Shown: positions 1,277-26,244 of the stretch, in pieces
How the letters are laid out: each line of letters starts with the position of its first letter
Numbering within the stretch: position 1 is the stretch's first letter
Source of the DNA: Sphingomonadales bacterium
GTDB lineage: Bacteria > Bacteroidota > Bacteroidia > Chitinophagales > Chitinophagaceae
Length of the DNA: 64,000 nt
Direction of reading: 5' to 3'
Assembly: GCA_016872155.1 (NCBI GenBank)
Contig: VHBB01000003.1
Coordinates: forward strand, 1-64,000
Notes under the pieces: model-generated
Database searches by the model: none
What the model was told of the DNA's origin: nothing
Seen by the model: only the letters and a program-made list of their open reading frames with translations
Position numbers and translations under genes: made by a program

Positions 1277-3295
1277 ATGGGAAGAAAGAACAGTAAGAGA
1301 AAACAGCAGCAGCGTAAACACCATCCTAGTGCAGTGGCGCAGGTCGTAAAGGGTACGCTCGAATTGACGCGCTCGGGAATGGGCTATGTGCTGGTCGATC
1401 AACTTGAGACTGATATTATGGTTCGCCCTGGTGATCTGCATAGTGCTTTGCATGGCGATCTGGTTAAAGTGGCCATTAAAGAGCGAAAGACCAATGGTCG
1501 GATGCAAGGGGTTGTCAAAGAGGTCATCAAACGTAAGCGAAGCGAATTTATCGGGCAACTGCAAGTGGGCAATGGATTTGCTTTTTTTGTGGCCGAGACC
1601 GATAAGCCCATGCCCGATATATTTATTCCTAAACAACTTTTGCAAGGGGCGATACAAGGCGACAGGGTCGTGGTAAAAGTAATTAAGTGGGAAGAAGGAG
1701 GCGACAAACGACCCATGGGAGAAGTAATTACGATCTTAAAAGAAGAAGACATGAACGACGCGGCCATGAAAGAGATCTTGCTCGAGGCCGGTTTTCCGTT
1801 GTCGTTTAGCGAAGAGGCATTCGAAGAGTCGGCCCGTATACCCGAGGTGATCGGCCAAGAAGAGATAGCGCAACGAAGAGATTGCCGCTCTATTCTCACT
1901 TTTACCATTGACCCCGTCGATGCCAAAGATTTTGACGATGCCATCTCTATACAGCAACTACCCAACGGTAATCTGGAGATCGGTGTTCATATTGCCGATG
2001 TAAGCCACTATGTAGTGCCAAAAACGGCGCTGGATGCCGAAGCGTATGCCAGGGCCACTTCGGTCTATTTGCCCGATAGGGTCAAACCCATGTTGCCCGA
2101 ACATATTTCGAATGTGCTTTGTTCGCTGCGTCCAAAAGAAGAAAAACTGACCTTCTCGGCTATTTTTATCATTACGCCGCAGGGGCAAATAAAAGATCAG
2201 TGGCTGGGCCGCACCGTTATTTATTCCGATCATCGCTTTACTTATGAAGAGGTGCAGGCTATTATCGAAGAGGGGAGCGGACTCTATGCCAAAGAGATCT
2301 TGCAGTTACATCAACTGGCCCGTCAGTTTCGGGCCCGGCGTTTCGAGCAAGGGGCCATCAATTTTTCTTCGCAAGAGGTTCGATTCAAGCTCAACGAAAA
2401 AGGAGACCCTGTAGGAATCATGGTCAAAGAGAGCAAAGAGTCACATCAGTTGATCGAAGAGTTTATGTTGCTGGCCAACCGAACCGTGGCTGCCTTTATT
2501 GCCCATAAAAAAATAGACAACAAGCCCATCCCTTTTCCGTACCGAATTCACGACGATCCCGACGAAGAAAAGCTAATTCCCTTTGTCGATTTTGCCCGCA
2601 AGTTCGGACACGGGTTTGACCGCTCCAGCCCAGCGGCCATCGCTGCTTCGTTCAATCAATTGTTGCAAGATGTCAAGGGTCGCCCCGAGCAACATGTGCT
2701 GGAGCAATTGGGTATCCGCACCATGGCCAAGGCCCGCTATACGGCCGATAACGTCGGTCACTATGGATTGGGTTTTGAGAATTACTGCCATTTTACCTCA
2801 CCCATTCGTCGCTATCCCGACATACAGGCGCATCGCATCTTGTGGGAGGTGTTGCAGCAAAAGATACAACCCGATAAAAAATTAGAGGAGAAATGCAAGC
2901 ATACCAGCGAGCGAGAGCGAGCCGCCATGGAGGCCGAGCGGGCTGCCAATAAGTACAAGCAGGTGCAATACATGAAAAACTTCTTGGCCGAAGAGTTCGA
3001 AGGAATCATCAGCGGCGTAGCCCACTTTGGATTTTGGGTCGAGACCATCGAACATAAGTGTGAGGGGTTGGTGAGTGTGGTCTCGTTGTCTGACTATGAT
3101 GACTTTCGGCATGTAGAGTCCGATTACTGCTTGTTGGGTATGCGCACCGGAAAAAAGTTTCGCATGGGCGATAAGGTGTGGATCAAGGTCGTGGCCGCAA
3201 ATCTCACCAAGCGCCAGCTCGATTACGAGTGGGTGGTGGCGGGCGAGTTGGCCGCTAAAAAATCAGTGCCCAAATTGCCCAAAACCAAGAAATGA
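1277..3295 (+). CDS. rnr: Ribonuclease R
   Basis: A processive 3'-5' exoribonuclease of the RNB (RNase II/R) family that degrades structured RNA in the cytoplasm. The 672-residue protein has a basic N-terminus, cold-shock-like OB folds (about 20-150), and the RNB catalytic centre DPVDAKDFDDA at 212-222, whose aspartates bind the metal ions. Conserved HIADVSHYV follows, and a C-terminal S1 RNA-binding domain begins near EGIISGVAHFGFWV (about 575-650), ending in a Lys-rich tail. It is shorter than the E. coli enzyme because the N-terminal helix-turn-helix region is missing, as is common in this phylum. The S1 domain separates it from RNase II only loosely, so 'RNase R' follows the usual naming for the phylum. 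Confidence 0.93.
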   Translation: MGRKNSKRKQQQRKHHPSAVAQVVKGTLELTRSGMGYVLVDQLETDIMVRPGDLHSALHGDLVKVAIKERKTNGRMQGVVKEVIKRKRSEFIGQLQVGNGFAFFVAETDKPMPDIFIPKQLLQGAIQGDRVVVKVIKWEEGGDKRPMGEVITILKEEDMNDAAMKEILLEAGFPLSFSEEAFEESARIPEVIGQEEIAQRRDCRSILTFTIDPVDAKDFDDAISIQQLPNGNLEIGVHIADVSHYVVPKTALDAEAYARATSVYLPDRVKPMLPEHISNVLCSLRPKEEKLTFSAIFIITPQGQIKDQWLGRTVIYSDHRFTYEEVQAIIEEGSGLYAKEILQLHQLARQFRARRFEQGAINFSSQEVRFKLNEKGDPVGIMVKESKESHQLIEEFMLLANRTVAAFIAHKKIDNKPIPFPYRIHDDPDEEKLIPFVDFARKFGHGFDRSSPAAIAASFNQLLQDVKGRPEQHVLEQLGIRTMAKARYTADNVGHYGLGFENYCHFTSPIRRYPDIQAHRILWEVLQQKIQPDKKLEEKCKHTSERERAAMEAERAANKYKQVQYMKNFLAEEFEGIISGVAHFGFWVETIEHKCEGLVSVVSLSDYDDFRHVESDYCLLGMRTGKKFRMGDKVWIKVVAANLTKRQLDYEWVVAGELAAKKSVPKLPKTKK

Positions 3296-4276: not shown

Positions 4277-4302
4277 TAGAATCATTATAAAATAATTTGC
4301 AT

Positions 4303-5994
4303 ATGTCTTCTTCGCTGTTTAGAAAAAAATCAATTGAGTCCATTCGAGCCGAGTACGAAAAAAGTAGCGCGCAGCAAGGGTCTCTAAAAAAAGTACTGGG
4401 GGTTCGCGATCTTACATTCTTAGGTATTGCGGCCGTTATTGGAGCGGGTGTTTTTTCTACCATCGGTGGAGCGGCCTATCACGGCGGACCCGGCATCTCG
4501 CTTCTTTTTGTTATTACGGCCATTACCTGCGGCTTCTCTGCACTTTGTTATGCGGAGTTCTCTAGCCGGGTACCGGTAGCGGGGAGTGCTTATACGTATT
4601 CGTATGTAACGTTCGGTGAGCTGGTGGCCTGGATTATCGGGTGGGCGCTAATTTTAGAATATGCCATTGGTAATATCGTGGTGGCTATTTCGTGGAGTGG
4701 TTATTTTAATAATCTACTGGTGCATGTTTTTAACATTCACCTGCCGGATTGGATGCTGGTAGACCCCGTTACGGCAGCCAATGCCTACCGTGAGGCTACC
4801 CAGGCCTTGGGGTCGGGTGTACCCCTTGATGAAAGGCAACTTCGATCGTATCAATTTGCCATTGAGGCCTACCGCCAAGCCCCACAGCTTGGATCGTTAA
4901 AAGTATTTTTTAATCTACCTGCTTTTGTAATTGTGGCCTTGATTACCTGGCTGGCCTATGTGGGCATCAATCAAAGTAAACGATCGGCCAATGCCATGGT
5001 AATTTTTAAAGTGTTGGTTATTTTGTTTGTAATCGGTGCCGGCGCTTTTTATGTAGATACCAATAACTGGAATCCTTTTATGCCCAATGGAATTACCGGT
5101 GTTTTAAAAGGAGTCTCCGCTGTTTTTTATGCCTACATTGGGTTTGATGCCATCTCTACTACCGCAGAAGAATGTAAAAACCCACAACGCGATATGCCCC
5201 GGGGAATGATCTACTCACTTTTAATTTGCACCGTACTCTATATTTTAATTGCGCTTGTGTTGACCGGCATGGAACACTACGAGGCCTTTAAAGGAGTCAG
5301 CGATCCGCTGGCTTTTGTCTTTGAGAACAGGGCCCCGTGGATCGAAAACATTGTTTCGGTGAGCGCGGTGGTGGCCACTACGTCGGTTTTATTGGTCTTT
5401 CAGATCGGTCAACCCCGCATATGGATGAGCATGAGCAGAGACGGATTGCTTCCGCGTCGTTTTGGAAAGATCAATGCCAAGTATCAAACTCCCGGCTTTG
5501 CCACTTTATTAACGGGTGTGATCGTTGGTGTAGGGGCCCTTTTCTTGCAAAGCGGATTGGTAACCGATCTGACCAGCATTGGAACCCTTTTTGCTTTTGT
5601 ATTAGTATCGGGTGGTGTGCTGTTATTGCCTCGTATCGAAAAGACGCCCGGGCAATTTCGATTGCCGTACATAAATGGGCAAGTATGGGCACCGCTTTTA
5701 GTGATTGGATTTTTTTATATGACCAGCGATCGCTTAGTAAGTGCTTTTGCCAATATTTTTAATGAGGGATACCAAGAGCTACTCTTTATAGGCTACTTTG
5801 TTTGTGCAGCTGTGCTGGCCTTTTTTTCGTTTACCAGAAAACTATCGCTTATTCCGGTGCTGGGCGTGCTTTCTTGTATGTATCTGATGATCGAAATTCC
5901 CTCGATTAGCTGGAGCTGGTTCTTTGCCTGGATGGCATTGGGGTTACTGATCTACTTTGGGTACGGCTATCGTAAAAGCCTGCTGAATAAATGA
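4303..5994 (+). CDS. APC-superfamily amino acid permease (cationic amino acid transporter type)
   Basis: An inner-membrane secondary transporter of the APC superfamily. From the ATG at 4303 the product is 563 residues; an in-frame TTG at 4297 adds only two residues and is less likely. The N-terminal soluble stretch leads into the APC signature (FLGIAAVIGAGVFSTIGGAA), and about 12 hydrophobic segments follow. SAVFYAYIGFDAISTTAEE is the typical CAT/YfnA-family helix 8 segment. A hydrophilic insertion of about 50 residues (near 145-200, containing ATQALGSGVPLDERQ) lies between membrane segments and is longer than in the standard family. The substrate is unknown; basic or neutral amino acids are the usual guess. 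A short AGTACT repeat after the stop is the only 3' structure seen. Confidence 0.88.
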   Translation: MSSSLFRKKSIESIRAEYEKSSAQQGSLKKVLGVRDLTFLGIAAVIGAGVFSTIGGAAYHGGPGISLLFVITAITCGFSALCYAEFSSRVPVAGSAYTYSYVTFGELVAWIIGWALILEYAIGNIVVAISWSGYFNNLLVHVFNIHLPDWMLVDPVTAANAYREATQALGSGVPLDERQLRSYQFAIEAYRQAPQLGSLKVFFNLPAFVIVALITWLAYVGINQSKRSANAMVIFKVLVILFVIGAGAFYVDTNNWNPFMPNGITGVLKGVSAVFYAYIGFDAISTTAEECKNPQRDMPRGMIYSLLICTVLYILIALVLTGMEHYEAFKGVSDPLAFVFENRAPWIENIVSVSAVVATTSVLLVFQIGQPRIWMSMSRDGLLPRRFGKINAKYQTPGFATLLTGVIVGVGALFLQSGLVTDLTSIGTLFAFVLVSGGVLLLPRIEKTPGQFRLPYINGQVWAPLLVIGFFYMTSDRLVSAFANIFNEGYQELLFIGYFVCAAVLAFFSFTRKLSLIPVLGVLSCMYLMIEIPSISWSWFFAWMALGLLIYFGYGYRKSLLNK

Positions 5995-6174
5995 GTACTA
6001 CCACAGTACTATTACGATAAGCATTTACACATAATGCAAAATCAATAAAAAACGACATCAGTTTCATTGCGTTTCTACAGCCTAAGAAAAATTGCTGTTG
6101 GAACTTTGTTAAGTATTGAAAATCGCTGATTCAAGTAATTCAGAATCAATTTTCAACTACTTAAAACCACTGCA
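5995..6174. other. Intergenic region between permease and GldL-like gene
   Basis: 180 bases with no gene. It holds an AGTACT...AGTACT repeat just after the permease stop and, at 6101-6108, GAACTTTG, a one-mismatch version of the TAnnTTTG -7 element. If used, that element would give a leader of about 60 nt for the GldL-like gene. Nothing else convincing is seen. Confidence 0.4.
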
Positions 6175-6990
6175 ATGATTTACTGGCTTAAGAAGATCGA
6201 TCGTTTCAATTTCCTTTACAGTATCGGTGCCGTCATTATCCTGGTTGGGGTAATTGCGAAATTTTTAGAGTGGGAATACGAAGATGAATTACTGATTTCC
6301 GGATTAATGATGGAGATCTTCGTATTTGCCACTTCGTCTATTCAGTATAAGAAAAAGCCATTTTATTATAAGTGGGAGAGGATCTTTCCTGACCTGCTAG
6401 ACACCAAGGCCGAAAATCCGCAAGACACCATTGCCGTTCACGACCGAATTGAGCAGGTGACAACCGGCTACATAGGAACCCTGCAAACTCATATTGTTCG
6501 TCTCGATAAACTCAACTACGATTTTTATAAGCTCAGCGACCAGATCAGGGACAGTATGAGCGCCATTGCAGTAAATGCCCAATCGGTATCAGAGAGTCTT
6601 AGCAAGATCAATGTCGGCACCGATTCCATTACCCAAGGTATACATGAATTCGAAAACTTGGGTCAAAGCTATTCGATGCTCGATGCAGAGATCTCGAAAT
6701 TGAGGGCCGTAACAGAATCGAATAGTGGCCGGCTGGCACAATTAGAAAAAGAATTGGAGGGGGCCGGAAAGTCGGTCAAGGAGTTGGGGTTTCAAAATAA
6801 CAATGGATACTACGGCATCCACTACGCCGAAACGACCGGCTTATTGGTAGAGGCTATCAAAGAACAACAGAAAATTATACAAGAGCTAAAGGCGAGTATG
6901 GCTACGTTGTCAGCTCAGCTACGGCAACTGCAAGCAGAGCTACCGGTTAAAAAAGACAACCCCGGTTCAAGTTCTAAGAGCAATCAATAA
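6175..6990 (+). CDS. Orphan GldL-like protein (T9SS/gliding motor family)
   Basis: A 271-residue protein with two closely spaced membrane helices (about 13-30 and 39-56), a short amphipathic stretch containing WERIFPDLL, then a long soluble region rich in heptad-like repeats (about 80-260), probably coiled coil. The N-terminus aligns well with GldL, the proton-channel subunit of the type IX secretion and gliding motor. FNFLYSIGAVIILVGVIAK ends in Lys29, and GLMMEIFVFA carries Glu47; these match the positions of Lys27 and Glu49 of Flavobacterium GldL as I recall that sequence. Canonical GldL sits in gldKLMN, but none of K, M or N is here. A 96-residue single-pass membrane protein follows 24 bases later. 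Family membership is well supported, whereas the role is inference. Confidence 0.75.
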   Translation: MIYWLKKIDRFNFLYSIGAVIILVGVIAKFLEWEYEDELLISGLMMEIFVFATSSIQYKKKPFYYKWERIFPDLLDTKAENPQDTIAVHDRIEQVTTGYIGTLQTHIVRLDKLNYDFYKLSDQIRDSMSAIAVNAQSVSESLSKINVGTDSITQGIHEFENLGQSYSMLDAEISKLRAVTESNSGRLAQLEKELEGAGKSVKELGFQNNNGYYGIHYAETTGLLVEAIKEQQKIIQELKASMATLSAQLRQLQAELPVKKDNPGSSSKSNQ

Positions 6991-7014
6991 CTTTATATTT
7001 TAAATTTCTACTAC

Positions 7015-7305
7015 ATGAAAAGTATGTCCCATCGCACCTTGCACACGCTACGCAACCTGTCTTTGTTACTAACCCTGGTACTTCTATTGGGTTTTACGGC
7101 ACAGCGCATCTACGTATTTAAAATGACCGAGGCACAGGCCCAGTACCACTGGCAAAACCTCGAGGTAATTAAAGTGGCCATGGATCAAAGCAACCTGCCC
7201 CACAACCAGGTAAAGCAGGTTATTGGTGCCATCGATTCGCTGCAAAAAGACCTGCAGCGCGGTCTAACCATCGATTCTACTTCTGCTGCTCCCAAACTTA
7301 AGTAG
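7015..7305 (+). CDS. Small single-pass membrane protein of unknown function
   Basis: A 96-residue protein I do not recognise. A basic N-terminus (MKSMSHRTLHTLRN) precedes one hydrophobic helix (about 15-32), so the C-terminal 60 residues probably face the periplasm. That part is polar, with predicted helix (QVIGAIDSLQKDLQ). The ATG lies 24 bases after the GldL-like gene on the same strand, so the two are probably co-transcribed. It could be a small partner of the GldL-like protein, by analogy with the single-helix GldM, but there is no sequence evidence for that. The RNase P RNA promoter begins 13 bases after its stop. Confidence 0.6.
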   Translation: MKSMSHRTLHTLRNLSLLLTLVLLLGFTAQRIYVFKMTEAQAQYHWQNLEVIKVAMDQSNLPHNQVKQVIGAIDSLQKDLQRGLTIDSTSAAPKLK

Positions 7306-7317
7306 TCGGGTTTGGCT

Positions 7318-7325
7318 TATCTTTG
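7318..7325 (+). promoter_or_regulatory. -7 promoter element for rnpB
   Basis: TATCTTTG is an exact match to the Bacteroidota housekeeping -7 consensus TAnnTTTG. Four bases separate it from the predicted 5' end of RNase P RNA at 7330, which calibrates the start-site spacing for other promoters in the window. No clear -33 TTTG is seen at the usual distance. Confidence 0.8.
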
Positions 7326-7329
7326 CCTC

Positions 7330-7703
7330 GCTACAGACCGGGCCGTCGATCCCTCGCTTCCAGAGGGGTAGGAAAGTCCGGACAGCACAGTGCCATGCAC
7401 CGGTTAAGAGCCGGGATTCGGGAAACCGAAGACAGATAGTGCCACAGAAAATAACTGCCCTTACCATTAACTTGTTAAGGGTGAGGATGAAAACGTGGGG
7501 TAAGAGCCCACGGCCCCGGATGGTAACATCCCGGGCGGGTAAACCTTGCATGCTGAAATGCCACGTATAGTAGCCCACAAGAGTGGCACACTCAAGCCTT
7601 GCGCAAGCAGGCGGGTTACAGGGTAGGCAGCTTGAGCCCCAGGGGTAACGCTGGGGACAGATAAATGACGCCCTCGACAGAATCCGGCTTACAGGTCTGT
7701 AGC
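7330..7703 (+). ncRNA. rnpB: RNase P RNA (class A)
   Basis: This is the catalytic RNA of RNase P, which removes the 5' leader of tRNA precursors. The ends pair perfectly to form helix P1 (GCTACAGACC at 7330-7339 with GGTCTGTAGC at 7694-7703). The conserved 5' core GGAAAGTCCGGAC is present near 7370, followed by ACAGATAGTGCCACAG, the internal GATGAAAACGTGGGGTAAGAGCCC block, and the 3' core ACAGAATCCGGCTTA near 7677. The length of about 374 nt fits the class. It has its own promoter and is followed by two T tracts (7704-7722) that could end transcription. Confidence 0.95.
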
Positions 7704-7722
7704 ATTTTTTTAAATTTTTTTT
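7704..7722 (+). terminator. T-rich tract after rnpB (possible terminator)
   Basis: Immediately after the P1 helix there are two runs of seven and eight T residues separated by AAA. The terminal helix plus U tract could act as a terminator. However, the Smr gene starts at 7723 with no promoter in between, so some read-through is implied. Confidence 0.4.
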
Positions 7723-8066: not shown

Positions 8067-9162
8067 ATGACAATCGAGAAATTACAGGATATGCGGTCCC
8101 GCCTTGCCGGGATAAGGAGGTTTCTTTGACGTCGAGAACCGACTGCAAAAAATAGCCCAAGACAAACAACTTTCGCTCAGTTCCGGATTCTGGGACGACA
8201 ACAAGCGCGCCACCGAGATCATGAAGAGCATCAAGCTCAACGAATACTGGGTGGGTCTCTACGACATGGCTAACACCGGTGTAGAAGACTTTGCCGTGCT
8301 GTTCGAGTTCTGGAAAGCGGGCGATGCTACCGAAGAAGAAACGCAAGCGGCCTTTCAAAAGGCCATTCAGCTACTCGATGACGCCGAGTTTAAGGCTACG
8401 CTTAACGAGCCCGAAGATGAACTGCCCGCTGTACTGCAGATCAACTCCGGTGCGGGCGGTACCGAAAGCCAAGACTGGGCCGAAATGCTGGCCCGCATGT
8501 ACCGTATGTACGGCGAAAAGCAGGGCTATAAGGTTACCGAATTAGACTGGGTGTGGGGCGATGGGGCCGGTATTAAAACTTGCACCTTGCAATTCGAGGG
8601 GCCCTTTGCCTATGGATTTTTAAAGGCCGAAAGCGGGGTGCACAGATTGGTGCGCATCTCACCCTTCGATAGTAACGCACGTCGTCATACCTCTTTTGTA
8701 TCGGTCTTTGTCTATCCGCTGGTCGACGATACCATCCACATAGAAATTAAAGATGCCGATGTAAAAATGGAGACCGCGCGCAGTGGTGGAGCCGGCGGAC
8801 AAAACGTAAACAAGGTAGAGACCAAGGTAATGCTCACGCACTTGCCCACCGGTATTGTGGTGGTTTGCCAAACCGAGCGCTCGCAACTGGGCAACCGCGA
8901 AAAGGCCATGACCATGCTTAAAAGTCGGCTCTACGAAGAGGAGCTGCGCAAACGCAACGAGATTCGCGATGCGGTTAACAGTACCAAAAAGAAGATCGAG
9001 TGGGGCAGCCAGATTAGAAGCTATGTGTTTCATCCGTACAAGATGATCAAAGACCACCGCACCGATTACGAAGTAGGCAATATTCAACCTGTAATGGATG
9101 GCGAACTCGATGGATTTATTAAAGCCTATTTAATGAGCCAGAAAGAAACGCAGTCTTCGTAA
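8067..9162 (+). CDS. prfB: Peptide chain release factor 2, with programmed +1 frameshift
   Basis: RF2 recognises UGA and UAA stop codons and releases the peptide. Reading begins at ATG 8067 and meets TGA at 8127-8129 after 20 codons. The sequence AGGAGG TTT CTT TGA C is the classic RF2 recoding site, so the ribosome slips +1 on CTT and continues with GAC (8128) to the stop at 9162. The full product is about 364 residues, the standard RF2 length. The SPF stop-codon recognition motif ([11 protein letters not shown]) and the peptidyl-hydrolysis motif GGQ ([11 protein letters not shown]) are intact. A caller that ignores the frameshift would begin at an internal ATG (8221) and lose the first 50 or so residues. 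Synthesis is autoregulated by RF2 level. Confidence 0.95.
8115..8130 (+). promoter_or_regulatory. RF2 programmed frameshift signal
   Basis: An SD-like AGGAGG (8115-8120), a three-base spacer TTT, the slippery CTT (8124-8126) and the stop context TGAC (8127-8130) have the same arrangement and spacing as the E. coli prfB site. It is the clearest SD-like hexamer I noticed next to a translation signal in the window. Confidence 0.93.
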
Positions 9163-14313: not shown

Positions 14314-17300
14314 ATGCGCTCTTTCTGCAGTAGAAAATCCTTTTTTTTAATGCTTCTCTGCTGCTTTACTCTTGGGATACATGCACAAGATTTTTCTAAC
14401 AGGGGTAGGGAGTTTTGGGTGGCTTATAGTTACCATGTCGGGATGGTCAACGCGGGTGGCGCTCCTGCCATGACGCTCTATTTAACATCTCCCGTCGCAA
14501 CTACCTACACCGTTGAGGCATTTGGTGCTGCAGGGCCTCCGATTAGCACGGGCAACATCAATGCCAACCAGGTAATACCGGTTATTATTCCTAACACTTT
14601 TTTTATTAATGTAAATGGCCTAGCGCCAGCCGGCCGCGCCATTCGGGTAACCGCGGCAGAACCCATAGCGCTGTATTCTTTTATAACAAGAAGTTCTGCT
14701 AGTGCGGCCACCTTGTGTCTGCCTACCAATGTGCTGGGGCGTGAATATGTTGCTTCAAGTTTTACACAGGTTTCTAACGAAGCGAACGCCTGCTCCTATA
14801 TTACTATAGTTGGAGTAGAAGATAATACCAATGTTGATATTACGGTTACGGCAGCAACCCGTGGAAACTGGGCAGCGGGCTCCACCAACCGAATCACGTT
14901 GAACAAAGGAGATGTTTATCAAGTATTAGGAACAACCACGGGTAGTAATGGGGTAGATCTCTCCGGTTCAAAAATTGTATCGGTGGCATCGGGTACGTCT
15001 TCTTGCAAAAGAATCGCAGTTTTTTCCGGTTCCGGTAAACTAGGAATTGCCGCTGGTGGATGTAACAATCCCTCGGCAGACAATTTGTACCAACAGCTTT
15101 ATCCTGTATCTACATGGGGAAAAAGATTTCTTACAGCTCCATCATCGGGTCGTCCCTTCAATTACTATAGAGTCTACAGAAAAAGTAGCTCTACTGCACT
15201 ATCAGTAAATGGGGTAGCGGTGGCTCCCACCTCGTTTACCAATGATTATTATCAATTCTACAATAACACACTAAATCTCATTGAGTCGAACGAACCCGTC
15301 GCAGTTGCACAGTATTTTCCAAGTCAGAGCTGCCCTGCCGGGGCGGGAGGTAATCCGAATCCTTACGATCCCGAGATGATCATCTTAAGTCCCTTGGAAC
15401 AAAACATAAAGGATGTTACGCTGCAAAATAGCCCACTAACCAACAATACGATCACCCATCAACATTACATACAAGTTATAATGCCCAATACCGGAACGGC
15501 AATAAGTTCTTTTCGTTTTGATGGAAATCCGGTTACGGCAGCCTCTTGGATTCCCCATTCGCAAGATAATACCTACTCTTATCTCTACTTAAATAATGTG
15601 ACTGTTGGCAATCACCGAATCAGTTCTGATTCCGGTTTCGTGGCGCTGGCCTACGGTTACGGAGCCACTGAGTCGTATGGATATTCTGCCGGTGCCAATG
15701 TAAAGGACCTTTATCAATACTTGAGTGTTACCAGTAACGGAGTGCTAACGCCTACACCACGTTCTTGTGTCAATACCCCCATTAAGTTTGGTATTACTTT
15801 TCCTTACGAACCTCCTCAAATAAGATGGGTGTTTGGTTCTGCATTGAATGCTATTGGCATTGCCAATACTACCCTTCCAAACCCGACTTACACTTCTACC
15901 TCTGTTGTACAGGGTAGAACACTTTACTACTACGAATTGCCAAGCTTATATAACATTAGCACGACAGGAGTATATCCCATAACAGTCTTTGCGGTCAACA
16001 ATGGACCCGATGGTTGCGGAGGCGAGCAAGAGATCAAATACGATTTAACCATCGATCCAAAACCTCAAGCTTCATTTACCTATTCTGGATCTTGTCTAAA
16101 TTCTCCAATCACATTCACAGATAATTCAGCGGCCGGCAATTCTCCCATCACGGCCTATTCTTGGTCATTTGGTGATAATAATACTTCTACCCAGTTCAAT
16201 CCAACTTATACTTATTCCACAGCAGGTACGTACAGTGTATCTTATTCAATTTCCAATAATATCGGATGCATATCAGAACCCTTTGTCTTGCCGATCAATG
16301 TAGTTGCTCCGCCAACCGCTACGATTACCGGAGGAGGATTAACATGTATTAACTCGCCCCTTTCACCGCAAGTTACCTTTACAGGATCGGGAGGTACTGC
16401 ACCTTATATCTTCCAATATACGATCAATGGGACAGGTCCGCTTTCTGCCACCACATTATCTTCTACCAATTCAGTGACCATAAGTGCGCCCACCAACCAG
16501 CTGGGAATTTTTTCTTACACAATTTCTAGTGTAACAGAGTCAGGAGCTGGAGCTTGCAGCCAAGTACAAACCGGTACGGTGACGGTTACCATCAACACCA
16601 ACCCATCGGCCACCATTACCGGTACGACCGAAGTTTGTAAGGGGACGGCCTTCCCGCCGGTTACGTTTACCGGAAGCGATGGAACGCCTCCTTATACATT
16701 TACATATAACATCAATGGCGGTCCTTCGCTGGTCGCGAGTACACTTTCCAGCTCTTCTTCTACTGCACTGTTAATCTCTACGGTTACTCCGGGCACTTAT
16801 ACCTATAACTTAACAGGAGTAGTCGATGTAAACAATACGGTTTGCAGCGGATCTCCTACGGGCAGCGCCACGGTTATTGTAAACGACCTGCCTACTGCCA
16901 CTATTAGTGGAACCACCAGTGTTTGTTTGAGCGCCACAGAACCACAGATTAGTTTTACCGGTGCCAATGGAACAGCGCCCTATACTTTCTTTTACACCAT
17001 TAATGGGGCTGGGACCTTAAGTGTTACTAGCAATGGCAACACAGCCACCGTTCCGGTACCTACCACAACGGCAGGCACCTTTACCTATACGCTGCAAAGC
17101 GTAAGAGATGCCAGTGTTACCGCCTGTACGCAGCCCCAATCCGGTACTGCTGTGGTAACAGTTTGGCCACGTCCGCAAGCAGCTTATACGACCAGTTCTC
17201 CTGTCTGCCAGGCTGGGGTCATTAGTTTTACCGATCAGTCCATCGCTAACGTAGGTACAGTTACGGGTTGGTTGTGGAATTTTGGGGATCCCTTAAGTGG

Positions 17301-19563
17301 TGGTCAGAATACATCTACGCTGCAGAGTCCCTTACATTTTTATGCATCAGCAGGAACGTATACCATTACGCTCACGGTTACGACGAGCAATGGCTGTGTG
17401 AGTGTTAATGCCGTTACTCCGTTGGTGGTGCACCCCAAGCCCAGAGCCGGGTATATAATTCCTGAAGTCTGCCTGAGTGACACCTATGCGCAGTTTACCG
17501 ACACCAGCTCTGTAGCTAGTCCCTCTACCATTACTGCCTGGCAGTGGAATTTTGGTAATCAAAATGCTTCTCCGCCGGGCAACCCGAACACCGCTACCTT
17601 GCAAAATCCACAACATAGCTACACGGCTGTTGGCACCTATACCGTTACTTTAATTTCTACTAGTAGTGATGGATGCAGGGATACCATTATTCAACAACTT
17701 ACAGTAAACGGAAGTTTTCCGGTAGCCAGTTTTTCAGTTAATAACCCTACCACGCTTTGTGCTAATGATTCAGTTCGCATTACCAATAACTCAACGGTAC
17801 TTCCGGGCGTTATTACTAAAGTAGAGATCTGGTGGGATAATATTGGTGCTCCCGCTACTGTTTTTGTAGACGATAATCCGTTTTTTGGTAAGGTGTATAG
17901 TTATCGTTATCCGAATTTTCAATCGCCACTTACAAAGACGTATCAAATAAAATTCAGGGCTTATTCGGGCGGCGTTTGTATGCGAGAGGTTACGCAAACG
18001 ATTACGGTCAATGCGGCCCCCAAAGTACAATTCAATTCTATACCCAATATTTGCTTCGATGCGCCTGCCTACCAAATTACACAAGCATCCGAGATCGGTA
18101 ATGTGCCGGGGTCGGGTGTATTTTCAGGAAGCGGTGTTACCGCCGCCGGGGTATTTAGTCCTACACAAGTAGGGGCGGGCACGTTTAGCATTTCTTATCT
18201 CTTTACTTCTACTACCGGCGGATGCAAAGATAGCCTTACGCAAACGATCAAGGTATGGGAGCGAGCCATTGCTGACTTTACGGTTACGGCTGAACCTTTT
18301 TGCGAGAGACAACCTATTACTTTTACTTCTAATTCATCATCATCAGAAGGTACGCTTACCACCTGGAATTGGGACTTTGCAGATGGGGCAGGAGTGTTCA
18401 CCGCTACCTCAGCAGCAGCACTTACGCGTACCTATGTCACTTTTGGTACGTTTAATGTAAAGCTGAATGTGGTAACCAGCAACAATTGCGTAAGTGCCGA
18501 TAAAATTATTCCGGTGGTGGTAAAACCCTTGGCTCGTCCTAATTTTAGTTTCCCCGCCGTTAGTTGTCTGCCAAATGCCAATGTTGAATTTACCAACCTA
18601 TCAACCGTTCCCAACGCTGCTCCGAGTACGCTGACCTATCTATGGAATTTTGACGATCCGCCCAGCGGAACGGTCAACACTTCTACGGCCACCGATCCTT
18701 CGCATGTATATGTAAACCTTGGGCCCTACAATGTTAAGTTAACAGCAACGACATTGGATGGTTGTATACACGATACGACCATTGTGCTCAATACCATACA
18801 TCCGCAACCGATCGCTTCTTTTACGACTGATGCTATAGATGTTTGTATCGGAGCGCCTTTTTTGTTTACCAGCACTAGCGATCCGGCGGATGGTACTATA
18901 CAATCTTATAGTTGGGATATGGCCGATGGTGCAACGCGAACACTGGGTAGTTTTTCGTATACCTATGCCGATACGGGCACCTATACGGTAAGCCATTTTA
19001 TAATAAATAGTTTTGGTTGTAAGAGCACGATCGCTACAAAGACCATCTATGTAAATGGATATCCCGATGCCGATGCTGGTCCCGATAAATTAATGCTCGA
19101 AGGCGGTCAAGTACAACTAACCCCTCCTAATAATTACCCCATGCCGGTCAGCTTTGCATGGACACCTCCCACCTATTTGGATGATCCCACTCGAATAGAC
19201 CCCACAGCGCGCCCCCCAGATGATATTACCTATTTACTGACTGTTACTAGTAACAAAGGATGCAGTGATACCAGCAGTGTTTTTATTAGGGTATTGAAAG
19301 ATCCGCCGGTGCCTAATATTTTCTCTCCCAATGGTGATGGGGTGCATGACACATGGATTATCCCTTATCTGGATAGTTATCCGGGCTGTACGGTCGAGGT
19401 TGTAAACCGCTATGGAAACCTGGTGTTCCGTTCGGTCGGCTATGCCACACCCTGGGATGGAAAGGTAAAAGGTAAGGATGTACCGGTGGGTACCTATTAC
19501 TTCGTGATCGATCCTAAGAACGGCCGCAAAAAGAAAGCGGGCTATGTAGACATAATTAGATAA
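14314..19563 (+). CDS. Giant PKD-repeat surface protein with type B T9SS sorting domain
   Basis: A 1749-residue secreted, adhesin-like protein. Order of parts: signal peptide ending near HAQ (residue 25); an IgGFc-binding-like N-terminal domain (about 26-460, GREFWVAYSYH...); a first PKD domain near 583-660; three similar SprB-like repeats of about 95 residues (near 665, 762 and 859, each opening with ATI.G); then PKD or PKD-like domains near 952, 1042, 1134, 1316, 1406 and 1497; an Ig-like segment near 1582; and the gliding-motility-associated C-terminal domain from about 1663 (PNIFSPNGDGVHDTW...WDGKVKGKDVPVGTYYFVI). That last domain is the type B signal for export by the type IX secretion system and surface attachment. 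A PorP/SprF gene follows 3 bases later. Its binding target is unknown. Confidence 0.92.
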   Translation: MRSFCSRKSFFLMLLCCFTLGIHAQDFSNRGREFWVAYSYHVGMVNAGGAPAMTLYLTSPVATTYTVEAFGAAGPPISTGNINANQVIPVIIPNTFFINVNGLAPAGRAIRVTAAEPIALYSFITRSSASAATLCLPTNVLGREYVASSFTQVSNEANACSYITIVGVEDNTNVDITVTAATRGNWAAGSTNRITLNKGDVYQVLGTTTGSNGVDLSGSKIVSVASGTSSCKRIAVFSGSGKLGIAAGGCNNPSADNLYQQLYPVSTWGKRFLTAPSSGRPFNYYRVYRKSSSTALSVNGVAVAPTSFTNDYYQFYNNTLNLIESNEPVAVAQYFPSQSCPAGAGGNPNPYDPEMIILSPLEQNIKDVTLQNSPLTNNTITHQHYIQVIMPNTGTAISSFRFDGNPVTAASWIPHSQDNTYSYLYLNNVTVGNHRISSDSGFVALAYGYGATESYGYSAGANVKDLYQYLSVTSNGVLTPTPRSCVNTPIKFGITFPYEPPQIRWVFGSALNAIGIANTTLPNPTYTSTSVVQGRTLYYYELPSLYNISTTGVYPITVFAVNNGPDGCGGEQEIKYDLTIDPKPQASFTYSGSCLNSPITFTDNSAAGNSPITAYSWSFGDNNTSTQFNPTYTYSTAGTYSVSYSISNNIGCISEPFVLPINVVAPPTATITGGGLTCINSPLSPQVTFTGSGGTAPYIFQYTINGTGPLSATTLSSTNSVTISAPTNQLGIFSYTISSVTESGAGACSQVQTGTVTVTINTNPSATITGTTEVCKGTAFPPVTFTGSDGTPPYTFTYNINGGPSLVASTLSSSSSTALLISTVTPGTYTYNLTGVVDVNNTVCSGSPTGSATVIVNDLPTATISGTTSVCLSATEPQISFTGANGTAPYTFFYTINGAGTLSVTSNGNTATVPVPTTTAGTFTYTLQSVRDASVTACTQPQSGTAVVTVWPRPQAAYTTSSPVCQAGVISFTDQSIANVGTVTGWLWNFGDPLSGGQNTSTLQSPLHFYASAGTYTITLTVTTSNGCVSVNAVTPLVVHPKPRAGYIIPEVCLSDTYAQFTDTSSVASPSTITAWQWNFGNQNASPPGNPNTATLQNPQHSYTAVGTYTVTLISTSSDGCRDTIIQQLTVNGSFPVASFSVNNPTTLCANDSVRITNNSTVLPGVITKVEIWWDNIGAPATVFVDDNPFFGKVYSYRYPNFQSPLTKTYQIKFRAYSGGVCMREVTQTITVNAAPKVQFNSIPNICFDAPAYQITQASEIGNVPGSGVFSGSGVTAAGVFSPTQVGAGTFSISYLFTSTTGGCKDSLTQTIKVWERAIADFTVTAEPFCERQPITFTSNSSSSEGTLTTWNWDFADGAGVFTATSAAALTRTYVTFGTFNVKLNVVTSNNCVSADKIIPVVVKPLARPNFSFPAVSCLPNANVEFTNLSTVPNAAPSTLTYLWNFDDPPSGTVNTSTATDPSHVYVNLGPYNVKLTATTLDGCIHDTTIVLNTIHPQPIASFTTDAIDVCIGAPFLFTSTSDPADGTIQSYSWDMADGATRTLGSFSYTYADTGTYTVSHFIINSFGCKSTIATKTIYVNGYPDADAGPDKLMLEGGQVQLTPPNNYPMPVSFAWTPPTYLDDPTRIDPTARPPDDITYLLTVTSNKGCSDTSSVFIRVLKDPPVPNIFSPNGDGVHDTWIIPYLDSYPGCTVEVVNRYGNLVFRSVGYATPWDGKVKGKDVPVGTYYFVIDPKNGRKKKAGYVDIIR
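16308..17165 (+). repeat. Three tandem SprB-like repeats inside the PKD protein
   Basis: Three consecutive protein repeats of about 95 residues, each starting with P[ST]ATI.G, a Cys eight or so residues later, then P.[VI][ST]FTG..GT.PY.F.Y.ING and a closing Cys before TVTV or AVVTV. They begin near 16308, 16600 and 16890. The repeats are diverged at DNA level, so this is protein-level tandem duplication rather than a recent DNA repeat. Confidence 0.75.
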
Positions 19564-21152: not shown

Positions 21153-23402
21153 TTAGCAATTTGGGGCTTTCTCTGCATTGACCGCTTCTTGCCAATGAAG
21201 ATAATTGCCGGGGTAGTCATTTAACATTCCACCGGGCTGTGAGACAGGCGGTGGAGGAGGTGGTATTTTTTCGCTTTCCAACTGCGCCAGTGTGGGAGCG
21301 ATAACTAAAGATACGATAGACATCAATTTAATCAAAATATTCATCGAAGGGCCTGAGGTGTCTTTAAAGGGATCTCCCACGGTATCTCCGGTTACAGAGG
21401 CCTTATGGGGTTCCGATTTTTTATAATAGGTCTCTCCGTTAATCTCGACTCCTTTTTCGAACGACTTCTTGGCATTGTCCCAAGCACCGCCTGCATTGTT
21501 TTGGAACATACCCATGAGCACACCACTCACCGTGGCGCCGGCTAAAAATCCTCCCAATGCCTCGGGGCCGAGTATAAATCCAACCAGTAGCGGAGAGACG
21601 ATCGTAATGGCTCCGGGCAACATCATCTTTTTAATGGAGGCCTGGGTAGAAATGGCTACACACTTATCGTATTCGGGTTTGCCGGTTCCTTCCATAATAC
21701 CAGGGATGGTACGAAACTGACGACGCACTTCTTCTACCATGCTCATGGCGGCTTCTCCTACGGCACGAATAGCGAGAGAAGAGAACAGCAGCGGAATCAT
21801 TCCTCCTACAAAAAGGGCAGCCAGTACATCGGCCTTGTAAATATCAATGTGTTGATTATTGGGCATGGCCACGCCAACGAAAGCCGCGAATAAAGCAAGG
21901 GCAGTTAGGGCGGCAGAGGCAATGGCAAATCCTTTTCCGGTGGCAGCAGTCGTGTTACCGACGGCGTCGAGTACATCGGTTTTTTCGCGTACTTCTTTGG
22001 GCAGCTCGCTCATTTCTGCAATACCGCCCGCGTTATCGGCAATAGGACCAAAGGCATCAATGGCCAACTGCATTGCCGTGGTGGCCATCATACCGGCTGC
22101 GGCAATAGCCACCCCATAGAGACCGGCAAATTGATACGAGCCATAGATACCACCGGCCAACACCAAAATGGGTAAGAAGGTAGATTCCATTCCAACGGCT
22201 AGTCCACCGATTACATTGGTAGCATGACCTGTAGAAGATTGACGAATAATAGAGAGCACAGGGCGTTTACCCATGGCAGTATAGTATTCGGTAATAATGC
22301 TCATAAGCGCTCCAACCAGCAGACCTACGCCAATGGCGCCGAGCACCCCCCATTTAGTAAAGATCACACCGCGAAGCTCCATCGCCTCGGGCAATATAAA
22401 ATAGACAAGGGCAGCAGAGGCAATGGCGGTCAACACGATCGATCCCCAGTTACCCATGTTGAGCGCTTTTTGTACCGTATCGGTACTAATGCCGGCTTGC
22501 TCGCTAATGCTCACAAACCAAGTACCTACAATAGAAAAAAGAATTCCCACACCTGCAATAAGCATAGGAAGTACAATGGGGGCGTATCCGCCCAAGATAT
22601 CTTGTCCGAATACAACGGTCGTTTGCTGGCCCAGTACGATGGTGGCAAGCACGGTGGCCACATACGAACCAAAAAGATCGGCGCCCATACCGGCCACATC
22701 ACCCACATTATCGCCCACATTATCGGCAATGGTGGCAGGGTTGCGAGGATCGTCTTCGGGAATACCGGCCTCAACTTTACCGACCAGGTCGGCGCCCACA
22801 TCGGCGGCTTTAGTATAGATACCGCCACCTACACGAGCAAAAAGAGCAATCGATTCGGCACCCAGCGAAAACCCGGTAAGTACTTCGATGGTCTTGATCA
22901 TCTCATCGGAATTAACCGGAGCACCGGGCGCAAAAACTTGTTTTAAGATAATATAGAGTCCGCCTAAACCGAGCACGGCCAATCCCGATACACCCAGCCC
23001 CATAACGGCTCCTCCGGTAAACGAAACATTGAGGGCTTTACTAAGGCTGGTGCGGGCCGCTTGTGCAGTTCTTACGTTGGCCAGGGTTGCGATCTTCATT
23101 CCAATATAACCCGCCGTGGCGCTAAAGACCGCGCCTACTACGAAAGAAACGGCGATCATCCAATGGGAGTGAGGGTTAGAGCTAGACATCAGCGCGAGCA
23201 ACATACCCACGACCACTACAAAATAGCCCAGGATCTTCCACTCGGCCTTTAAAAAGGCCATGGCCCCTTCGGCAATGTAGGTGCTGATCTCTTTCATACG
23301 ATCGGTGCCGGCGTCTTGCTTGGCAACCCAATTAAACTTAACCAGGGTGTAAAGGAGTCCGATAACACCGGACAGGGGAACCAGATAAATTAGCTTGTCC
23401 AT
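21153..23402 (-). CDS. hppA: Membrane-bound ion-translocating pyrophosphatase, K+-dependent type
   Basis: Hydrolyses pyrophosphate and pumps H+ or Na+ across the inner membrane. The 749-residue protein has about 16 hydrophobic helices and the diagnostic catalytic segments [20 protein letters not shown] and [30 protein letters not shown] carries Ala where K+-independent enzymes have Lys, so the enzyme should be K+-dependent; the pumped ion is not certain. Unusual is a Pro-rich, probably soluble C-terminal tail of about 40 residues ([15 protein letters not shown] ... ending in Cys). It is a single gene with a terminator and a probable promoter (23470-23477). Confidence 0.95.
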
Positions 23403-23469
23403 AATTGTATTTTCTGCAGTTCAGTTTTTGACAGAAATAGCCCCTAAAATAGGGGGGTTGTTCGGGCGG

Positions 23470-23477
23470 TAAAGATA
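23470..23477 (-). promoter_or_regulatory. Probable -7 element for hppA
   Basis: TATCTTTA on the minus strand (one mismatch to TAnnTTTG) lies 67 bases before the hppA ATG. The predicted leader contains a small CCCCTA/TAGGGG hairpin. Confidence 0.45.
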
Positions 23478-23492
23478 GGGGGTCAGCGCCTA

Positions 23493-24998
23493 TTAATCAA
23501 GGGCTAACCAGGCACCTCCCAGGTGGTCTATAAGGTCGCTTGGCAGTAGGGCCGGCTCCGATACCGAACGGGCGGCCAAATTGCCTGCCAACCCGTGTAA
23601 ATAAACTCCCAAACGTACGGCCTGCTGTGTAGGTAATCGTTGCGCCAAAAGTCCGGTAAGGATGCCGGTTAGCACATCGCCCATACCCCCGGTGGCCATG
23701 CCGGGATTGCCACTGCCATTAAAGAAAACGGTACCGTCCGGACAAACGATCTGGGTGTGATGTCCTTTTATGACCAAATAAACTTGATGCCGGGTCGCTT
23801 TATCGATAGCCTTATGCAGGCGTTCAACATCGTTAGCACTGTTGCCGAAGAGTCGTGCAAATTCTTTGGGATGCGGGGTCAGCACACTGCTGTTCGGTAT
23901 CCGGTCAATTAAAGAGGGCCGCATCGCCAGACAGTTTAAGGCATCGGCGTCTAGCACCAGGGGTTGCGTAGAAGAGGACAGTAGCTTTTCCAGAAGGGCC
24001 AACACGTTGGGGTGCGTACCCATGCCAGGGCCAATGCCAATGGCACTATAGACAGAGAGGTCATCGGGAAAACGACTAATGTGATCTTGTTGATCGTCTA
24101 CTATACACATCGCCTCTGGAACGGCGGTCTGTAGAATGATAGTTCCCGCACTGGGAACCTGGCAGCTGAGTAAGCCCAAGCCCGATCGTAAGGCGCCTTT
24201 GGCGGCCAGCACCGCTGCACCCATTTTGCCGAGTTGACCGCATAATAAAAGTGCATGACCAAAATTTCCTTTGTGCGCATGGCGAGCGCGTTGAGGACGC
24301 AGGGTCTTGATGTCTTCTAGTAACTGTAAATAGTAGGGGGTATCGGTATGGGTATAGAAACCCGGGTGCAGGCCAATAGAAAGCAAATGCACTTGCCCCA
24401 AATAAGGTTCGTTTTCGTCTAGCAACATGGCTAGCTTATACGATTGTAAACAAAGGGTATGAGTGGCCCTCACCACCGGATACAAAACAGATGAGCCATC
24501 GGCCAGTAGTCCGCTCGGCAGATCAATTGAAATACAAGTGCATCTCGATTGATTGATCGTTTCTACCATAGCGGCGCTAAGAGATTCGAGTCCGCGATTA
24601 AGCCCCGATCCGTACAAGGCATCGATTACCATACTGCTTTCGGGCAGACTTGGTAATTGATCGGGCTGTTGTACAAAGCGAATGGTTACTTGCGGATATC
24701 GATGAAGGCGAGACAGATTTAATTGAAAATCGGGGGTGCCCAACGAACCAAATTCAAGTACGTATACCTGAATCGATTTACCCTGATGGGCTAACAGACG
24801 AGCAATGGCAAGACCGTCCCCTCCGTTATTGCCCTTGCCACAGCATACGACAAATTCGTTTTGCTCGGGGTACTGCGCCACGATCCACGCAAAACAACGG
24901 TGAGCCGCACGCTCCATGAGCTGTTCGGAGCTGATCGGCTCTTCTCGAAGGGTATATTCATCCCAAGCCCTGATCTGATCGGCACTAAAGATCTTCAT
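23493..24998 (-). CDS. nnr: Bifunctional NAD(P)H-hydrate epimerase / ADP-dependent dehydratase
   Basis: Repairs NAD(P)HX, the hydrated damage product of NADH and NADPH. The 501-residue protein fuses two domains. The N-terminal YjeF_N epimerase (about 1-215) has FVVCCGKGNNGGDGLAIARLL, and the C-terminal ribokinase-like dehydratase (about 225-501) has LVLDADALN, LTPHPKEFARL, VIKGHHT and GNPGMATGGMGDVLTG, the nucleotide-binding and catalytic Asp segment. Length matches other bifunctional Nnr proteins. It stands alone between hppA and the serine hydrolase, transcribed in the same direction as both. Confidence 0.95.
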   Translation of the reverse strand: MKIFSADQIRAWDEYTLREEPISSEQLMERAAHRCFAWIVAQYPEQNEFVVCCGKGNNGGDGLAIARLLAHQGKSIQVYVLEFGSLGTPDFQLNLSRLHRYPQVTIRFVQQPDQLPSLPESSMVIDALYGSGLNRGLESLSAAMVETINQSRCTCISIDLPSGLLADGSSVLYPVVRATHTLCLQSYKLAMLLDENEPYLGQVHLLSIGLHPGFYTHTDTPYYLQLLEDIKTLRPQRARHAHKGNFGHALLLCGQLGKMGAAVLAAKGALRSGLGLLSCQVPSAGTIILQTAVPEAMCIVDDQQDHISRFPDDLSVYSAIGIGPGMGTHPNVLALLEKLLSSSTQPLVLDADALNCLAMRPSLIDRIPNSSVLTPHPKEFARLFGNSANDVERLHKAIDKATRHQVYLVIKGHHTQIVCPDGTVFFNGSGNPGMATGGMGDVLTGILTGLLAQRLPTQQAVRLGVYLHGLAGNLAARSVSEPALLPSDLIDHLGGAWLALD

Positions 24999-25065: not shown

Positions 25066-26244
25066 CTACAGATCTTCTTCTCGCTCATCTTGGTTGTAGT
25101 AATTGCCAAATAGATCGTAGCTGTGATGGGCGGCCGAATAGATACCTCGGTTAAAGCGATTGCCCAAAATGATAATCACTACTTTTTCTTCGACCAATCG
25201 GGTAAAGACGGCATTGTTGCCATGCCATCTTCCAAAGTGATAAATAACTTTTTTTCCATTGGGCAAGAACTCCAATCGAAATCCCAGTCCGTAGTGATGG
25301 GTGCCGGGTCTTTCAAAGCTGTACCCCTGAAACGCTTGTTGCAAAAGAGTTGTATCGATTAGCTGATCGGTATAGAGCGCCTGATCCCAAACCAAGAGGT
25401 CTTGGGGTGTGCTATAGATATTTTTATCGCCATAGGTTAGATCGAGATAATCAAGCGGCCAAGGTTTACCATTGGGTTGGTAAGAAGCCACCGCGCGTTT
25501 GGCATGTTGTGGCTGGTAGACGAACGTGTTTTTCATGCCCAGCCGTTTAAATAAATGCTGGTGCAGATAGTCGGGATACGTTTTGGAACTGATCTTTTCT
25601 ATCAGCAGTGCCAGCAAAATATAATTGGTATTGCAGTACTCGAACCGTCGGTTGGGAGCCGCATGACGAATGGGCTTTTCTGCGATCATTACATTCAATA
25701 CATCTTGGTTGGTGGCCATGCGCTCTTTATTCCAAGAAGAGGCCTCCATAAAGTAGAGATAGTTAGGAAGACCACTGCGATGCGAAAGCAGATCGCGAAC
25801 CGTAATGCCAGGGTAGGGAAGGGTCGGAAAAAATTTTGAGATCGTATCTGTTAGTGAAAGATGGCCTTGTTGGATTAACTGCAGCGTGGCAATGGCCGTA
25901 AAGGGTTTGCTGGTAGAGGCAATGTGCAACGGGCTGCCGGCCGTAAGGGGGCGGGTGCGCTCCGGAAGATCCTCGTAGCCCCTGTATTGCTCGTAGATGA
26001 TCGTACCCCCTTTGGCCACCAAAATTCCTCCGTTAAAATTTCGGTAGGGACCCAGCAGGGTGCTATCAAAGTAGGCCGTTAACAGGGTTTGATAGTGGGC
26101 TTTTTCGTTTTCCGAGAGTGACTGTGGAGTAGGGGCCTTGTAGTTGCTTACCGTTTCTTTTGAGCGTTGCAATAACTCACAAGACAAACAACCATTCATT
26201 AGTGTCAGGAAGAGAAAAAGATGGTATACCGTGTAGTTTTTCAA
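25066..26244 (-). CDS. Serine hydrolase, class C beta-lactamase / DD-peptidase fold
   Basis: A 392-residue envelope protein. The hydrophobic N-terminus ends in LMNGC, a weak lipobox, so it may be a lipoprotein. The serine beta-lactamase-like fold is shown by the SxxK motif STSK in HIASTSKPFTA (about residue 110), a YxN-type motif YCNTNY near 203, and the family segment LLSHRSGLPNY. Members include DD-peptidases, esterases and D-aminopeptidases. Nothing points to true antibiotic resistance, and the BlaI gene is 4 kb away behind two other genes. It is divergent from serA, and each gene has its own -7 element in the shared gap. Confidence 0.88.
   Translation of the reverse strand: MKNYTVYHLFLFLTLMNGCLSCELLQRSKETVSNYKAPTPQSLSENEKAHYQTLLTAYFDSTLLGPYRNFNGGILVAKGGTIIYEQYRGYEDLPERTRPLTAGSPLHIASTSKPFTAIATLQLIQQGHLSLTDTISKFFPTLPYPGITVRDLLSHRSGLPNYLYFMEASSWNKERMATNQDVLNVMIAEKPIRHAAPNRRFEYCNTNYILLALLIEKISSKTYPDYLHQHLFKRLGMKNTFVYQPQHAKRAVASYQPNGKPWPLDYLDLTYGDKNIYSTPQDLLVWDQALYTDQLIDTTLLQQAFQGYSFERPGTHHYGLGFRLEFLPNGKKVIYHFGRWHGNNAVFTRLVEEKVVIIILGNRFNRGIYSAAHHSYDLFGNYYNQDEREEDL

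Follow-up and report, generated by a model that had tools for sequence, protein, structure and literature searches.

The GldL-like gene of the window, by which we mean the whole stretch of 64 000 nucleotides analyzed here, is a chimera: residues 1 to ~203 of its product come from a divergent paralogue, gldL2, and the remainder is the 3′ end of a Peptidase_S74-type fibre gene. A conserved GldL-GldM-PorG-like triplet, made up of gldL2, a second gldM (gldM2) and a gene for a protein called X, occurs in at least 13 genomes related to the source of the window, with neither GldK nor GldN coded beside it. The window gene is very probably the surviving first subunit of such a gldL2-gldM2-X operon, fused by a deletion to the end of the S74 fibre gene, a vestige here of what would be a GldL2/GldM2/X motor in relatives.

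A gldL paralogue joined to a fibre gene end

The fused gene and its landmarks are collected in Table 1. The fused gldL2 ORF and the 96-aa ORF share a common orientation and are separated by 24 bases, and the right flank of the pair consists of rnpB, an Smr-domain gene and prfB (protein gene names by eye). The permease-like gene on the left also adjoins gldL2 in G013 and G016, two genomes of the genus, and adjoins a fibre operon in G003, G017, G042 and G011. Two other features of the window can be mentioned. The start of prfB (8067-8129) shows an in-frame TGA after CTT, as in the usual RF2 frameshift, with the main ORF at 8221-9162, and positions 14314-19563 encode a secreted 1749-aa PKD-repeat protein with a C-terminus of the gliding-motility type, by eye a likely T9SS substrate.

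Table 1. Coordinates of the fused gene, its parts and its neighbours in the window.
Feature	Positions	Strand	Basis or remark
Amino-acid permease-like gene (name by eye), left landmark	4297..5994	+	ORF
Fused gldL2 ORF	6175-6990	+	271 aa
gldL2-derived portion (residues 1 to ~203)	6175..6783	+	GldL_N match, identity to relatives, tree
Likely fusion point, GAGTTGG	6781..6787	+	Overlap of parental DNA matches
Peptidase_S74-type fibre gene 3′ end, in-frame	6784..6990	+	Coiled coil behind S74 domain
96-aa protein ORF, small exported or single-span	7015..7305	+	Usual last gene of fibre operon
RNase P RNA (rnpB), right landmark	7330..7707	+	Rfam RF00010, 226 bits

The GldL-like N-terminus claimed in the original prediction is borne out by Pfam, in which window protein residues 14-76 match GldL_N (PF22827; E 1.4e-14, 54.4 bits, cut-off 24). 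The NCBIfam GldL model (TIGR03513) spans residues 11-252 (E 1.8e-16) with 60.8 bits, below its curated equivalog cut-off of 68.3, and the gldL2 copy of G016 obtains 52.5 bits against the same model. The best PDB matches of the window protein are solved GldL/PorL structures (phmmer to 7sat chain C, E 4.9e-8), and the protein is similar to the GldL/PorL of 7sat, 7sau and 6ys8 in its two-helix N-domain, helix-1 lysine, helix-2 glutamate and coiled-coil tail. The gldL2 part comprises two predicted membrane helices with K29 and E47, a strongly conserved cytoplasmic stretch (57-128) and a coiled coil; an AlphaFold prediction of the fused protein with one relative (two sequences) had a mean pLDDT of 52 and was set aside.

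Helix 1 of GldL/PorL has a conserved lysine that plays a role alongside the helix-2 glutamate. The membrane residues Lys29 and Glu47, correctly predicted to be kept, align with a K and an E that are invariant in 13/13 paralogue and 39/39 canonical GldLs. The place of GldL E59, the gliding-only glutamate, follows no rule, being occupied by E (7), Q (4), K (1) or L (1) in the triplet proteins and mostly by L in the canonical ones. The essential helix-2 glutamate of GldL is E49 in F. johnsoniae (PMC8986121). A branch with 100/99 support splits the GldL tree into 13 triplet and 39 canonical sequences, and the window GldL is found on the triplet side, nearest to G016 and G013 (fork support 81/94, drawn open). 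The order inside the triplet group is unsure because several triplet rows lie on long branches flagged by the program. A quick GldM tree search with 12 triplet and 52 canonical rows, some of which correspond to the same gene from two loci, recovered the same split (SH-aLRT 95).

The source genome carries a complete canonical gldK-gldL-gldM-gldN cluster on contig C11, where gldL, gldM and gldN were called by model and gldK by its position and its resemblance to a gldK from a different canonical cluster. This makes the window gene a paralogue, one of the options initially put forward, and the possibility that it is the only gldL of the genome is rejected on the same ground. The reported absence of gldK, gldM and gldN consequently describes the window but not the genome: blastx found neither gldK, gldN nor X in the window and its ORFs include no gldM2, while the canonical set is complete elsewhere. 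The sole gldM above its model's cut-off in the genome is the canonical copy, on a different contig from the window, and gldM2 was not found in this genome with either the gldM2 of G013 as query (E 1e-10) or the GldM model. The X profile has two matches in the genome (best 3.9e-23, positions not listed), which are taken as barrel-only because full-length X scores 1.7e-154 or better. A third, weak GldL_N match on C23 (18.6 bits) corresponds to a 99-aa ORF adjoining a UvrB-like gene (by eye). Compared with GldL/PorL, the window protein belongs to a lineage separate from the canonical one and its last ~68 residues are fibre-derived; its gene lies outside gldKLMN, with permease-like and 96-aa genes as neighbours, in a genome whose only GldM found is canonical.

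The dual origin of the gene emerges from both protein and DNA comparisons. When the window protein was searched against 42 genomes of the genus, matches beginning at residue 1 or 2 were obtained, besides the source genome, only in G016 (64% identity over window residues 1-214) and in G013 (68% over 2-205, cut by the contig end; a second G013 contig carries 147-211). Tail-only matches near residues 199-256, of up to 60% identity, are located at the ends of other ORFs, and one of these, a 394-aa ORF of G055 that is 60% identical at its end to this segment, carries Peptidase_S74 (E 4.8e-17). The fused tail resembles the coiled coil that comes after the S74 domain in Peptidase_S74 (chaperone of endosialidase) fibres, and the fusion differs from these fibres in being without the domain itself: Peptidase_S74 was not seen among the best 25 of 50 Pfam rows for the window protein, and no second S74 tail was found in this genome at E 1e-3. 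The long coiled coil (about 80-260) of the original prediction accordingly resolves into the tail of this GldL paralogue up to ~203 and the tail of another gene thereafter.

At the DNA level, the window was compared with 14 loci of relatives. Positions 6101-6788 and 6637-6802 match gldL2 of G013 and positions 6147-6753 match gldL2 of G016, the gldL2 matches stopping at 6753-6802; from 6769, 6781 or 6790 onward, the window matches S74 fibre genes and the 96-aa gene. The matches of the two parents overlap within 6769-6802. The crossover likely occurred at or near GAGTTGG, a heptamer that gldL2 of G013 shares at the corresponding position and for which G002 and G042 have GAATTGG in their S74 fibre genes. 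Neither form is found in gldL2 of G016 or in the S74 genes of G055 and G017, and the fact that the short similarity is not shared by all relatives counts against the explanation by deletion.

The gldL2-gldM2-X triplet in relatives

In G013, gldL2 precedes gldM2 (455 aa; GldM end domain, E 1.3e-5), after which comes X; gldL2 and gldM2 are joined through two contig ends on which the overlapping stretches of gldL2 disagree at one residue. In G016, gldM2 is a 79-aa stub before rnpB that keeps its transmembrane start (L073, G016:C14, 7077-7978), a case of the same operon decaying independently. Profiles of gldM2 (A1) and of X (A2) were used to find triplets beyond the genus. The order L-M-X was encountered in G420, G296 and G034, and in G131 a 255-aa protein and then a PorP/SprF-like protein separate L from M and the beginning of X (E 2e-9). 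X occurs at full length (E 1.7e-154 or better) in 11 genomes, out of 396 drawn evenly from the order (G034, G420, G296, G447, G460, G510, G494, G504, G472, G036 and G484). GldM lies directly upstream of X in 11/11 of them and GldL before GldM in 9/9 readable cases, the contigs of G504 and G036 ending before the GldL position. Together with G131 and G013, these genomes form the triplet set of 13. Neither GldK nor GldN was found by blastx in 14 triplet stretches from the 13 genomes, and both were found in 4/4 canonical controls.

Several of these loci have peculiarities of their own. The two proteins coded between gldL2 and gldM2 in G131 (L084, G131:C44, 1838-3537) are one of unknown family and the PorP/SprF-like protein (PF11751, E 1.8e-10), which is an extra T9SS-type outer-membrane carrier inside the triplet operon; another contig of this genome, G131:C149 (L213/L216), carries two neighbouring GldN matches over the cut-off (contig 23247-24074 and 25130-25924). 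The GldL2 of G420 (L083, G420:C2, 6702-8255) is 517 aa long and has two helices, then a long cytoplasmic part without a Pfam match.

The second component of the triplet is recognizable as a GldM. GldM domains were detected in 5/5 triplet M proteins scanned, and the N-terminal arginine and tyrosine are kept in 12/12 aligned. The GldM2 of relatives is therefore similar to GldM/PorM in its end domain, in some cases also in the first and third domains, and in these two residues; it differs in having diverged in G013 (32 bits against the T9SS GldM model, cut-off 180) and in being coded beside X instead of gldN.

The third component combines a PorG-like barrel with a large N-terminal part. The C-terminus of X matches NCBIfam T9SS_PorG (NF052316) in 5/5 proteins scanned (E 4.8e-16 to 1.5e-29), with 59 to 103 bits, all below the equivalog cut-off of 130. 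DUF6089 is matched in 6/7 scanned, X of G296 matching a general barrel model only. X is thus similar to PorG in its C-terminal barrel and differs from it by about 450 extra residues before the barrel, for which no confident family match was obtained. This N-terminal part contains asparagine-rich repeats that suggest a beta-helix (by eye; Pfam Beta_helix at only E 0.81, in one of four), and PDB searches with X returned nothing convincing. A further difference from PorG is that no cysteine is found in the last 60 residues of X in 10/12 full-length copies, all of them outside G484. That genome has two copies in tandem (L176, G484:C1, 6989-13056), which end in thrombospondin-type repeats that hold cysteines and are absent from the other X proteins scanned.

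The distribution of the triplet depends on how it is searched. The X profile matched 391/396 genomes of the order; the matches listed outside the 11 named genomes cover only about X positions 439-746, the barrel, and are not counted as X. The GldM2 profile had matches in 22/396 genomes of the order, and 20 regions were read from 19 of these 22, leaving out G470, G571 and the already known G420. Two of the 20 regions are new triplets, those of G296 and G034. Five others (G476, G513, G458, G453 and G463) were rejected as triplets, their neighbours identifying canonical GldM, and the rest contain mainly a GldM end domain with no GldL adjoining. Two membrane-anchored proteins of about 520-555 aa, L119 (G538, 1398-3065) and L125 (G554, 6059-7615), have a basic N-terminus and a GldM end domain as C-end, again without an adjoining GldL, and possibly represent another use of this domain. 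A search of the family with a single GldM2 sequence matched 2/394 genomes and missed G296, later found positive, so that the triplet frequencies are lower bounds. The count of 0/395 in a sample of the phylum, run with no positive control, says only that the triplet was not found in that sample. No relatives of X were found on viral contigs. A survey of the literature on paralogues, second copies and GldLM-like systems, covering titles and abstract openings and leaving subscription papers largely uncovered, yielded no published description of the triplet.

In G420, a T9SS-tail-like protein and a fibre-type protein, with 23% and 39% identity to fibre-operon proteins of the genus, are coded about 1.8 kb after X, which makes an ancestral order of motor triplet, then fibre operon, plausible. 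The full order gldL2-gldM2-X-fibre-96aa-rnpB is a plausible reconstruction from G013, the fibre loci and G420, and is present on no single contig of the genus.

The triplet seems to constitute a second GldLM-type motor that bypasses the GldK/N ring, apparently an undescribed relative of the T9SS motor. A GldL-type motor with another output, an idea initially attached to the window pair, is more tenable for the intact triplet of relatives, in which the partner is a real GldM together with a PorG-like protein. We tentatively consider this triplet as a proton-driven trans-envelope machine that descends from the T9SS motor but is separate from it; having lost the GldK/N ring, it would drive the PorG-like barrel directly and perhaps move or export the fibres that adjoin it in some genomes, the window recording its decay by fusion to the fibre operon. 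It is rather unlikely that the triplet is instead a spare part of the ordinary T9SS, with its GldLM driving the same GldK/N ring and X replacing PorG. Such an arrangement would suit the kinship of X with PorG and the presence of a canonical gldL above the model cut-off elsewhere in 11/13 triplet genomes (the G447 copy being read through three stop codons; G494 has a weak extra match only, and G036, which is 57% complete, has none), as well as that of gldN in 11/13, where G494 and G036 are again those in which it was not found. It fits poorly, however, with triplet stretches in which GldK and GldN were not found and with the C-tail of X, since PorG bonds GldK through a C-tail cysteine (PMC12635249) and X lacks such a residue outside G484.

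Probable decay of the window copy, and its 96-aa neighbour

We call the window locus a relic because gldM2 and X are not adjacent to the fused gene and because the searches of the genome for gldM2, within their limits, found none. A three-way comparison over the ~203 codons of the gldL2 part counted 37 unique amino-acid changes in the window, 10 in G013 and 14 in G016. The corresponding numbers are 34, 15 and 48 for the permease and 25, 14 and 18 for the prenyltransferase. Against both flanking genes summed (59 in the window vs 95 in the others), the excess in the window gldL2 has a Fisher p of 0.004; the value is 0.002 against the permease alone and 0.10, not significant, against the prenyltransferase alone. 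The excess is found at residues 129-205, next to the fusion (25 vs 3 and 6), and residues 57-128 hardly vary, with 2, 2 and 2 unique changes of 72 in the window, G013 and G016. The saturation of silent sites made dN/dS not computable for gldL2. In all likelihood the window pair is a vestige on which constraint has relaxed. Since the ORF is open, K29 and E47 are kept and residues 57-128 are little changed, some use of the fused protein, namely of its membrane part, may remain.

A more specific use, that of a regulator or decoy, would suppose that the fused GldL2 owes its retention to joining the canonical GldLM motor or to binding the canonical GldM. The genome does encode a canonical GldLM, and the membrane part, the Lys/Glu pair and the 57-128 stretch have been preserved in an open frame, but the long, well-supported branch separating GldL2 from canonical GldL and the fast-changed tail speak against this proposal, which we regard as improbable. 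An artefact of assembly or binning, by which the gldL2 of one strain was joined to the fibre gene of another, is less probable still: the draft has 35 contigs and the fibre genes are multi-copy in some relatives, which invites misjoins, but the junction lies within a 192-kb contig, between both expected flanks (permease; rnpB-Smr-prfB), the frame is open across the join and neither parent was found intact in the genome.

Eleven other genomes of the genus together encode 17 strong homologues of the 96-aa protein, one weak match in G018 having been dropped. Two of the 17 loci are cut at a contig end with their upstream side unread (G055:C66 and G013:C122). Among the 15 readable loci, 11 have fibre-type genes upstream on the same strand within about 1.2 kb; the other four have a lipoprotein-gene remnant (G006:C35, G054:C301), a lipoprotein gene (G016:C22) or, in G044, nothing, the 96-aa gene alone remaining there between permease and rnpB. 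The pair, whose conservation was to be checked according to the original prediction, is not conserved, as gldL2 was not seen upstream of the 96-aa gene in any of the 17 other loci (two cut at the contig end). In 12 loci searched, rnpB comes after the 96-aa gene in nine, as in the window, and a tenth rnpB follows the gldM2 stub of G016. Loci of relatives that include the permease and rnpB contain a fibre operon whose last gene is the 96-aa one, and in G002 the S74 gene is still there, though frameshifted, together with the 96-aa gene (83% identical) and rnpB. The 96-aa gene is the usual last gene of the fibre operon and no substitute for GldM.

Concerning the protein itself, the original prediction of a 96-residue neighbour 24 bases on with one membrane helix was right about the ORF and the spacing, but the single hydrophobic N-terminal stretch (alignment, by eye) may represent a signal peptide and not a helix that stays in the membrane. 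The further proposal of a reduced motor, in which this protein would replace GldM as the single-helix partner of the fused GldL2, can draw on the close, co-directional genes, on K29 and E47 and on the hydrophobic stretch, but it is rejected as highly improbable because the pair is not conserved, the 96-aa gene comes after fibre genes, its product lacks the Arg-then-Tyr spacing of the GldM helix (by eye), and gldL2 adjoins gldM2 in G013 and its stub in G016.

Proposed mechanism and meaning

A single deletion, probably at a short similar sequence, would account for the fusion in the window. It would have taken away the end of gldL2, the whole of gldM2 and X, and the fibre genes as far as the last ~68 codons of the S74-type gene. 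What was left would be a single fused ORF, in frame, and behind it the gene that closes the fibre operon; the window copy presumably no longer works. In relatives, GldL2 would form a membrane ring using proton flow through the conserved Lys/Glu pair. GldM2 would be a dimeric axle whose end domain reaches across the periplasm and acts on X, the PorG-like outer-membrane barrel with a large N-terminal part, in replacement of the GldK/N ring.

The window therefore presents a clear route of decay and gene fusion, and it carries a warning that a GldL domain match beside a small membrane protein need not be a working motor. Its value is that of a lead to the GldL-GldM-PorG-like triplet. The GldK/N ring and PorG are assigned a central part in turning the proton flow of GldLM into outer-membrane movement, and a motor with GldL, GldM and a PorG-like barrel whose locus encodes neither GldK nor GldN would offer a simplified test case for the transfer of force by GldM.
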